60,625 bases of DNA, from the NCBI GenBank assembly GCA_002069605.1, contig MWBQ01000033.1, positions 1 through 60,625 on the forward strand. Direction: 5' to 3'. The DNA is from Candidatus Atribacteria bacterium ADurb.Bin276. Lineage in GTDB: Bacteria > Atribacterota > Atribacteria > Atribacterales > Atribacteraceae. Made by a program: the position numbers and the translations under genes. The notes under the pieces are model-generated. The model searched no databases. It saw only the letters and a list, made by a program, of their open reading frames with translations, and was not told the origin of the DNA. Below, one piece after another: positions 43,855 through 46,651 of this stretch (within the stretch, counting starts at the first letter, position 1; every line of letters begins with the position of its first letter).

Positions 43855-44541
43855 ATGGACGTACCGATTGATTTTAAAGCTATCGAGGACTCAATAAGTT
43901 GTATTGACGGCATTATTAATGTAAAAATTGTCGGAGAAGGTTCAAATATCACTGAGATTCATGTTTTATCCAATCGGAGCAAGGGGCCTAAATTATTAGT
44001 TAGGGATATTGAAACTCTTATCAAGGCTCGTTTTGGTGTTGAAATTGATCATAAAAAAATTAGCGTTGTGAGTTTCGACTTGGAAGAACCACCTCACGAA
44101 ACAACGGTAATCCAGGAACGGCCTATTTTATGGGGAGTTGGATGGAAAAAATCCGGTGATAATTTTCAGGCGGACGTTGAAATCAAACTCGTTGACAAGG
44201 TTTATCGTTCTTCTCTTAACAGCAAAGCCTGGGACCAGAGAGAGCGGTGTTCGTTAATTGCCCAAGCAGTTATAGATTGTATGAATCAAATTGTTGCAAC
44301 TCCATTGTTTTCCTTACGAGGAGTTACCGTTCATAATTATTGTGAATTTGATGTGGCAGTTTGTCTGGTTGATTATCGTAACTTCGGAAAAGCCGAAGGG
44401 ACTTTGATTGGTACAGCCTTACTTCGAGATGAAATCTATGAAACCGTTGCACGATCAGCATTGGATGCAGTAAATAGGAAAGTGAATTATTATCATTCCT
44501 TCCATCGGGAAAATTTAGAAAAAAACTCTTTTGAACATTGA
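43855..44541 (+). CDS. Conserved hypothetical protein, function unknown
   Basis: A 228-aa soluble protein with no signal or membrane segment. An N-terminal region (about 1-75: SCIDGIINVKIVGEGSNITEIHVLSNRSKGPKLLVRDIETL) looks like an alpha-beta domain that could bind a ligand, and a second region (about 85-215, ALLRDEIYETVARSALDAVNRK) probably forms a repeat-like fold. I recall similar proteins in anaerobic Firmicutes next to HD and DUF5317 genes, but assign no function. AGGTGGGG precedes the ATG. Just upstream of a structured leader and the HD-GYP gene. Confidence 0.6.
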   Translation: MDVPIDFKAIEDSISCIDGIINVKIVGEGSNITEIHVLSNRSKGPKLLVRDIETLIKARFGVEIDHKKISVVSFDLEEPPHETTVIQERPILWGVGWKKSGDNFQADVEIKLVDKVYRSSLNSKAWDQRERCSLIAQAVIDCMNQIVATPLFSLRGVTVHNYCEFDVAVCLVDYRNFGKAEGTLIGTALLRDEIYETVARSALDAVNRKVNYYHSFHRENLEKNSFEH

Positions 44542-44656
44542 AAAGGAGTGATTTTAAGCCAAAAATAGATTGAAATGCAATCCGAAGAGGAGGAAATACC
44601 GAGAAGCCAAGTTTTTACCAGTCCATCTATTATGGATATAGAACTATAAGGAGAAG

Positions 44657-44866
44657 AAAAGGCGGCCAGGGGTCTATAGAGCGAAGCGGCCTTCCCATCT
44701 TTACTTAGCGAAGAAAGGTGGAGAATGATCGCAGGGAGGGCTTTCGAATGAAAAAACTGCTGAGCATTCTTCTTGGTCTTTTGGCCATCGTTTTAGCCAG
44801 TGGTGCTGGTTTCCATTGGAGATAAGCTAAAGTTGCAATAGAAGCCTCCCTGGTCGCCTTTTTTAA
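44657..44866 (+). terminator. Long-range terminator/anti-terminator pair around the mini-ORF
   Basis: AAAAGGCGGCCAGGG (44657-44671) pairs with CCCTGGTCGCCTTTT (44848-44862), one G-U pair, then a T-run. The alternative pairing is between the mini-ORF ribosome site (44732-44745, CAGGGAGGG-rich) and 44841-44852. The two exclude one another, as in attenuators. Confidence 0.55.
44748..44825 (+). CDS. 25-aa hydrophobic leader peptide
   Basis: MKKLLSILLGLLAIVLASGA-type peptide of 25 residues, with a KK start, a hydrophobic stretch and a GFHWR end. GCAGGGAGGG lies at good distance before the ATG. It has the composition of a signal-like or small membrane peptide. It is enclosed in a long RNA stem and may control the downstream HD-GYP gene by its translation, or be a functional small protein. 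Not in a recognised family. Confidence 0.5.
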   Translation: MKKLLSILLGLLAIVLASGAGFHWR

Positions 44867-44874
44867 AATTTTGG

Positions 44875-46125
44875 ATGAAGTCCGATAAAAAGAAGCATCT
44901 ACTAGATTTTTATATTTATTCAGTTATTATTTTTGGCATTGCTTTATTTTTATATTCGCTTTTAACCATTGATTTAAGTCATTTTCCTCTTGCTCAAATC
45001 ATCACCTTCCTGGTATTGATAATGGTTACCGAAGCTTTACCAATTCACCTTTCTCCCCATACTTCAATATCCGTTAGTTTTGCTATAATTTATGCTTTTA
45101 TTTTACTAACCAACCCTTATTTGGTAATGATTGCTACTTTCATTGGAAATGTTTTAATTTATATGAAATCAGGCTGGAAAAAAAGCCTGTTTAATGGTGC
45201 TCAATTTGCCATTTCAGCCTTTCTTTCAGGGTATGTTTTTCAACTCCTCGGGGGCTATGCTTACGCTTGGGATCAGTTTGCTTTTTATATAGCCATTGTC
45301 ATATCCATATTAGTTTTTTTCTTAAGCAATGCTTCCTTGGTTATCATAGTCATTTCTTTAAGCACGGGTATATCAATTCCGGTTTTATGGAAAAAAGATG
45401 TCAATGGAATCCTCCTGCAATATTTTGGACTTTTCCCTTATTCACTGTTGCTTTACCTAATATATCTGCGCATTGGTTATGTGGGATTATTTTTATTCTT
45501 TTTTCCTCTGATGATAGCAAGGTATTCATTTAAGCTTTATGTTGAAACGAAAAAAGTCCATCTTGAATTATTACGAGCTCTCACTGCTGCGTTGGATGCT
45601 AAAGACCCATATACTCAAGGCCATTCGGCTCGGGTAGCAAAAATTTCTTTGGCAATTGCAGAAAAGCTCAACCTTTCCGATAAAAAGCAAGAAATGATTG
45701 AATATGCAGCCTTGCTTCATGATGTTGGAAAAATTGGGATTGAAGACGCGATTTTAAGAAAACCAGGTCCTCTTACTGAAGGAGAGTATATCATTGTTAA
45801 ACAGCATCCAGTTATAGGTTTTGATATAGTTTCTAAAGTCGACTTTTTAAAGGAAATCGCCGGTTTAATTCGATCTCACCATGAGAGATGTAATGGAAGT
45901 GGCTATCCGGATGGAAAGAAGCAGACCGACCTTCCTGTTGAATCCCTTATATTAGCAGTGGCTGATGTTTTTGAAGCTTTAACTTCCGACCGGCCTTATC
46001 GTAAAGCGTATTCAGTAGAAGAAGCTTTAATTATAATGGAAAATGAAGGAAACGAATATTATGATTTTAAGGTCATAAAAGCACTTAAAGAGATTTTGCA
46101 GGAGGGCTTTGAGGTTGCTGGCTGA
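44875..46125 (+). CDS. HD-GYP domain cyclic-di-GMP phosphodiesterase-like protein with N-terminal membrane region
   Basis: A 416-aa protein. The N-terminal half has about seven hydrophobic segments (residues about 12-225), a membrane sensor of unknown ligand. The C-terminal half is an HD-GYP domain (about 232-412): KDPYTQGHSARVA, LLHDVGKIGI (HD), KQHPVIGFDI, SHHERCNGSGYP (GYP motif) and VADVFEALTSDRPYR. All metal-site segments appear to be kept, so it should hydrolyse cyclic di-GMP. Its start lies at the end of the structured leader. Overlaps the next gene by a few codons. Confidence 0.9.
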   Translation: MKSDKKKHLLDFYIYSVIIFGIALFLYSLLTIDLSHFPLAQIITFLVLIMVTEALPIHLSPHTSISVSFAIIYAFILLTNPYLVMIATFIGNVLIYMKSGWKKSLFNGAQFAISAFLSGYVFQLLGGYAYAWDQFAFYIAIVISILVFFLSNASLVIIVISLSTGISIPVLWKKDVNGILLQYFGLFPYSLLLYLIYLRIGYVGLFLFFFPLMIARYSFKLYVETKKVHLELLRALTAALDAKDPYTQGHSARVAKISLAIAEKLNLSDKKQEMIEYAALLHDVGKIGIEDAILRKPGPLTEGEYIIVKQHPVIGFDIVSKVDFLKEIAGLIRSHHERCNGSGYPDGKKQTDLPVESLILAVADVFEALTSDRPYRKAYSVEEALIIMENEGNEYYDFKVIKALKEILQEGFEVAG

Positions 46126-46651
46126 TTTTGTTTTAATTGGTATTGTTATAGGTTATATCAGTCGCGGAAATTTCCAAAATCTAAAACAAGCGAACATTCC
46201 TTATTTATGGCTCATCGTTTTGGGTTTTTTGGTGAAGTTTATTGGCCCGTATTTCTCCGAATGGTCTTTTCAATGGTTCAATATTATTGGTATGATTATT
46301 GTTTTTATTGGGACCCTTTTTAGTTATAAGTCCTATGGAATGAAAATTGTCTCGGTCGGGGCATTTCTCAATATCCTAGTTATTCTTTTTAACCGAGGGA
46401 TGATGCCGGTTTGGCTACCAATGGTTCAGCGGCTTCAACTTCATGATTTAGCGAATCATTTGGAAAATGGACTTTATCTTGATTATACTCTCCTCAATAC
46501 TTCTACTCGACTTCCTTTTTTGGGTGATACTCTTCCTTATTACTCGCTTATTATGCGTCGCCCCTTTGTAATCAGTATCGGTGATTATTTATTAGGTATC
46601 GGTTTAATGGCCTTCATCATATTTTATATGAGAAAGAAATATTCAAATTAA
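46115..46651 (+). CDS. DUF5317 family membrane protein
   Basis: About 178 aa with four to five transmembrane segments (about 3-17, 28-45, 55-70, 78-95 and 155-172). The conserved-looking FNRGMMPVWLP and LLNTSTRLPFLGDTLP segments match my memory of DUF5317 proteins. The start is TTG, 46115 preferred (site AGGAGGG nine bases upstream) or TTG 46109. Overlaps the end of the HD-GYP gene, so translationally coupled. Function unknown. Confidence 0.72.
   Translation: MLADFVLIGIVIGYISRGNFQNLKQANIPYLWLIVLGFLVKFIGPYFSEWSFQWFNIIGMIIVFIGTLFSYKSYGMKIVSVGAFLNILVILFNRGMMPVWLPMVQRLQLHDLANHLENGLYLDYTLLNTSTRLPFLGDTLPYYSLIMRRPFVISIGDYLLGIGLMAFIIFYMRKKYSN

Follow-up and report, generated by a model that had tools for sequence, protein, structure and literature searches.

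What is encoded between gene X and the HD-GYP phosphodiesterase gene of Candidatus Atribacteria bacterium ADurb.Bin276, and does this interval merely set expression of the gene behind it or also supply a product of its own? We addressed this question in contig MWBQ01000033.1 (60,625 nt; hereafter the window). A first-pass annotation had read the interval as a candidate attenuator whose terminator stem encloses a hydrophobic mini-ORF. The interval and its flanking genes contain the following features.

43855..44541, + strand: gene X, encoding a 228-aa protein without Pfam/NCBIfam match, the usual upstream neighbour
44655..44672, + strand: P1 5′ arm (44657-44671 of the first-pass annotation, lengthened by 2 nt on its 5′ and 1 nt on its 3′ side)
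44680..44686, + strand: motif M1, AGCGAAG (consensus AGCGRAG)
44688..44696, + strand: P2 5′ arm, GGCCTTCCC
44695..44702, + strand: P3 5′ arm, overlapping the last P2 bases
44707..44712, + strand: motif M2 (AGCGAA), located in the loop of P3
44714..44721, + strand: P3 3′ arm, AAAGGTGG
44734..44742, + strand: P2 3′ arm, GGGAGGGCT, over the mini-ORF ribosome site
44748..44825, + strand: mini-ORF MKKLLSILLGLLAIVLASGAGFHWR, 25 codons, GGGAGGG ribosome site
44847..44864, + strand: P1 3′ arm with T-run
44875..46125, + strand: MASE9-HD-GYP phosphodiesterase gene, HHERCNGSGYP signature intact
46109..46651, + strand: gene for a DUF5317 membrane protein, following HD-GYP in the operon

Long-range stem P1 and the overall fold

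Direct reading of the window revealed that 44657-44671 (AAAAGGCGGCCAGGG) pairs with 44848-44862 (CCCTGGTCGCCTTTT) over 15 bp, with one G-U, ahead of a T-run. This core of P1, claimed by the first-pass annotation, is present and is conserved far beyond the genus. P1 encloses ~175 nt, not a short loop. The predicted fold of 44640-44870 scored -82.6 kcal/mol (z -3.4), and none of 200 shuffles was equally stable. The window's P1 had a helix score of 41.4, whereas 400 shuffled sequences averaged 24.0 (sd 3.4) and did not exceed 40.0. P1 was also tested by cross-pairing arms of different elements, an approach free of the bias of model-fitted alignments. The helix score was 36.1 in the first 67 elements, vs 21.4 for arms swapped between elements; in 105 elements, the mean was 35.5 vs 23.5. 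The sequence of P1 varies freely, and each variant (AAAAGGCGGCCAGGG, GGACCGGGACGAGCC, AAGCCAAAACATCGA, TTTAGATCGACTAAA, GCAGTAAACCCGAA) has its own complement. P1 is kept by complementary but differing sequence across Atribacterota and Bacillota.

A block just 5′ of P1 (GGATATAGAACTATAAGGAGAAGAAAAGGCG, 44630-44660) is almost invariant among congeners. It contains AAGGAG (44648-44653), which would come near the HD-GYP start if P1 forms; the HD-GYP gene in the window has no clear ribosome site. Bridging of the upstream AAGGAG to the HD-GYP start by P1, in the style of T4 gene 38, is possible in the window's genus. It is not a general explanation, because many clostridial HD-GYP genes carry their own ribosome site after P1.

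P2, P3 and the AGCGRA motifs

Two further helices, P2 and P3, were present in the predicted fold of 44640-44870 and absent from the list of the first-pass annotation. M1, P2 and P3 all lie between the P1 5′ arm and the ORF, and M2, the second AGCGRA, lies ~25 nt 3′ of M1. In the covariance-model alignment, P2/P3 covariation was 0.411, vs 0.203 in shuffled and at most 0.135 in slid controls. Changes on both sides were seen for 13 of 13 P2/P3 pairs, a count that leans towards structure since the alignment (69 rows, two of them weak matches by chance) was fitted to the covariance model. In most elements the P2 3′ arm overlaps the mini-ORF ribosome site, usually running from the site towards the start codon. 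Accessibility of the site was 0.32, vs 0.43 with shuffled upstream sequence; the thermodynamic occlusion is thus modest. JS1-like Atribacterota families lack M2, and their P2 sits 5′ of the ribosome site instead of over it. A candidate fourth hairpin (CCTT..AAGG) is visible 5′ of the ribosome site in many sequences. The GGA in AGCGGA had raised the possibility of CsrA sites; these are unlikely by sequence reasoning, because AGCGAA is equally acceptable at the motif.

The mini-ORF and its peptide

The 25-codon ORF with a good ribosome site, also claimed by the first-pass annotation, was found at 44748-44825 and is likewise conserved far beyond the genus. Its peptide has a basic start and a single hydrophobic helix and ends in A[G/S]GA-x-aromatic-x-W. 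Single-base codon differences comprised 989 synonymous and 365 non-synonymous changes, relative to an expectation of ~2.85 non-synonymous per synonymous change (omega ~0.13; the pairs are not independent). This synonymous excess indicates that the peptide product is under strong purifying selection as a protein. In the GGA/SGA core the second G is invariant and the A is conserved at 98%. Counted from the A of AGGA, small residues recur at -11, -7, -4, 0 and +3; the resulting heptad-like face would suit packing of a membrane helix. The C-terminal ends differ (R, RP, RG, WL, VV), with tails of 4-10 residues. The peptide of JS1-like Atribacterota is MKINKAKLISFLISVMALLLAGGAKFKW. Pfam and NCBIfam searches with the peptide gave nothing above cut-off and only weak matches to signal-peptide regions. 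Together with the covariation of P1 and P2/P3, the peptide bears out strongly what the first-pass annotation had expected of related genomes.

Distribution of the element

Over its full length, the interval shares 84-87% identity with its counterparts in three congeners; in other genera and families of the window's order, the ORF alone can still be recognised. A peptide-pattern scan of ~85,000 species genomes matched Candidatus Atribacteria and Candidatus Caldatribacterium californiense. Surprisingly, Tissierellales/Clostridia also matched, among them Dethiosulfatibacter aminovorans; other scattered matches lay inside unrelated, mostly long frames and look like chance. The Tissierellales loci share the order X, RNA with mini-ORF, HD-GYP, DUF5317. 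Among 391 class-level genomes around Dethiosulfatibacter, a peptide profile found 23 credible members and a protein X profile found 46 X-bearing genomes with a clean E-value gap; wherever one of these 46 was inspected, both RNA and hydrophobic mini-ORF were present. Covariance model R1 matched 41 of the 391 Clostridia-class genomes, once each and always after X, and matched the window's own genome once. Atribacterota families that appear to be JS1-like also carry RNA and mini-ORF. In a wider sample, X was present in 161 of 399 genomes of a Bacillota-side phylum, and the element in 28 of the 29 best loci. The phyla sampled were Atribacterota and the Bacillota side.

Linkage to the HD-GYP gene

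Downstream sequence of 600 nt or more was available for 137 X loci, and in 101 of these X was followed by an HD-GYP gene. The AGCGRA motif and a mini-ORF (96 recognised by pattern, 5 by eye) were present in all 101. The remaining 36 loci, many of which continue with secA or a spoVS-like gene, had no mini-ORF; the single pattern hit among them (L268) was a false positive. Presence of the element thus follows the phosphodiesterase gene, not X, and the tie of stem and mini-ORF to the HD-GYP gene that had been proposed for the window was borne out. In one locus (L097, ~1400-1620), hpf, peptide, P1 and HD-GYP are kept, and X and the AGCGRA part (M1/P2/P3) are lost. From this joint loss, a single case, one might suspect that X reads the P2/P3 part.

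The AlphaFold model of X was confident (pLDDT 86). The C-terminal half of X is similar in fold to the leucine-binding regulatory domain of LeuA (Foldseek E 4e-5), and one member gave a Pfam LeuA_dimer match at E 0.014. This half shows a fainter likeness to tandem double-stranded-RNA-binding domains (E 4e-3). A separate region, which the order of strands and helices would place in the N-terminal half, resembles the EscJ ring-building fold. These likenesses are resemblances of fold, not assignments, and TM-scores over the whole query were low. X is common in Bacillota, where paralogs adjoin secA and spoVS-like genes.

Terminator signals and known RNA families

The first-pass annotation had taken P1 and its T-run for a terminator, competing with a pairing of 44732-44745 with 44841-44852. 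Just 24% of 102 elements had five or more T among the 8 nt that follow P1. A standard terminator scan did not call P1. The T fraction was 0.41 directly after P1 and 0.27 further on. The T-run (T6 in the window) is kept within the window's genus, where occasional termination at P1 is possible. The competing pairing requires a bulged G to form in the window and is not conserved: 94 related elements scored 14.3, vs 13.7 for mismatched controls. A choice between terminator and read-through thus fails the T-run, competing-pairing and terminator-scan tests. Promoter searches around the element, covering both strands, found 2 sites, vs 4.5 expected.

A search of the region against Rfam covariance models, which had been suggested for its identification, gave no fitting family among 4227. 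Nothing was found on the element at gathering score in the window and 43 related loci. Permissive E-values, applied to the window's element and to a clostridial one, likewise gave nothing. Like the c-di-GMP-I and -II riboswitches, the element is an RNA 5′ of a c-di-GMP-turnover gene; neither covariance model matched it, in agreement with the first-pass annotation. The same annotation had recommended a test for raiA RNA. This RNA, also named ModT, affects c-di-GMP (PMC11706538) and, like the element, is a structured Bacillota RNA near hpf. RF03072 had no match in 44400-45000 at E ≤ 10 or anywhere in the window at gathering score, and the window element differs from it in sequence and site. raiA RNA was observed as a separate RNA in the same neighbourhood of three loci from Clostridia and JS1-like Atribacterota (L140:3024-3227, L203:2880-3085, L213:351-567). 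Other known RNAs near related loci were a c-di-GMP-I riboswitch, TPP riboswitch, glmS ribozyme and group II intron (L220:3373-3459; L225:2853-2957; L049:4990-5138; L091:69-139). The open-access literature searched for the peptide strings and for HD-GYP/RNA combinations gave no name or description of the element; one may exist elsewhere.

Discussion

In our judgement, the existence at this locus of a conserved RNA structure and of a micropeptide under selection is nearly certain. To account for them we propose that the micropeptide is gated at translation, resides in the membrane and acts together with the membrane-bound HD-GYP phosphodiesterase; taken as a whole, this mechanism has about an even chance of being correct. 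The transcript between X and HD-GYP would fold into a closed form, with P1 clamping both ends and P2 covering the mini-ORF ribosome site and spacer, beside hairpin P3. A ligand or protein is likely to be recognised at the two AGCGRA motifs. Opening of P2 would allow translation of the ~25-residue peptide, a gating suggested by the position of P2 and by the modestly lower accessibility of the site (0.32 vs 0.43). The small size of this effect, the arrangement in JS1-like families and the L097 locus count against the model. The peptide, with its basic N-terminus, hydrophobic helix with a small-residue face, GGA (or SGA) and terminal tryptophan, most likely resides in the membrane. There it probably helps or tunes the MASE9-HD-GYP phosphodiesterase encoded next, and hence cellular c-di-GMP.

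The strict linkage could alternatively mean that peptide and RNA only regulate HD-GYP expression. The RNA and translation of the mini-ORF would then set expression of HD-GYP and DUF5317 in cis, via termination at P1 or altered HD-GYP translation, and the peptide would have no later job or would act in the ribosome tunnel. The position of the element immediately 5′ of HD-GYP in every case and the T-enrichment after P1 are consistent with this reading, as is the length of 25 residues, which is compatible with in-tunnel arrest peptides such as TnaC and ErmCL. However, three quarters of the elements have no T-run, and the peptide alignments contain no run of regulatory-amino-acid codons. The variable C-terminal end of the peptide is unlike strict arrest motifs, and the P1 arms lie outside the ORF, so that a translating ribosome would not open them. 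We consider purely cis-acting attenuation unlikely but plausible.

The peptide might instead be a bare signal peptide, cut after an A-x-A-like site to give a ~5-residue product (e.g. GFHWR) that is sensed by the MASE9 domain of the HD-GYP protein. Its basic start, hydrophobic core and small-x-A ending fit this proposal, and the tail, its variable part, has exactly five residues after GA in 70 of 102 peptides. The module contains no protease or exporter gene, however; the small-residue face runs on through the helix, as in helix packing; and the terminal W is kept (80%), whereas pheromones tend to diverge. Such a secreted signal seems improbable to us. Far more doubtful still is a type I toxin-like system, in which end-to-end pairing and a hidden ribosome site would silence a small hydrophobic toxin. 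Type I toxin mRNAs can be long-range closed, and the anatomy of the element and its short hydrophobic product are similar to theirs. However, the element occurs in one copy per genome at a fixed operon site in two phyla and is not mobile, repeated or patchy; its residues are strongly conserved, its link to HD-GYP is strict, and promoter-like sites on either strand were not above chance.

A conserved RNA structure beside a conserved short ORF is known from the Downstream-peptide motif/yfr6, where the RNA lies upstream of the ORF (PMC2864571). In the window, by contrast, P1 encloses the ORF, and the neighbours differ. The likeness of the peptide itself to a further group is one of size, helix and setting, and its gene differs in lying inside a conserved closed RNA. 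That group is of the KdpF, AcrZ and MgtS type: ~25-50 residues, with one helix, encoded beside or acting on a larger membrane protein.

The element combines a conserved RNA with a conserved micropeptide, neither with a match in Rfam, Pfam or NCBIfam, and in two phyla its link to a c-di-GMP phosphodiesterase gene is strict. We tentatively suggest, with rather less than even confidence, that it represents a novel class of RNAs that sense a ligand or protein, of sufficient age for Atribacterota and Bacillota to share it. Such an RNA would enclose the gene of a transmembrane micropeptide and control its translation, and the micropeptide would be a regulatory subunit dedicated to a c-di-GMP phosphodiesterase. 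The presence of the element also illustrates that 25-codon genes inside structured leaders can escape annotation. For the HD-GYP signalling enzyme, the element points to a so far unrecognised route of control, and it offers a test case for the control of membrane HD-GYP proteins in Gram-positive and deep-branching anaerobes.
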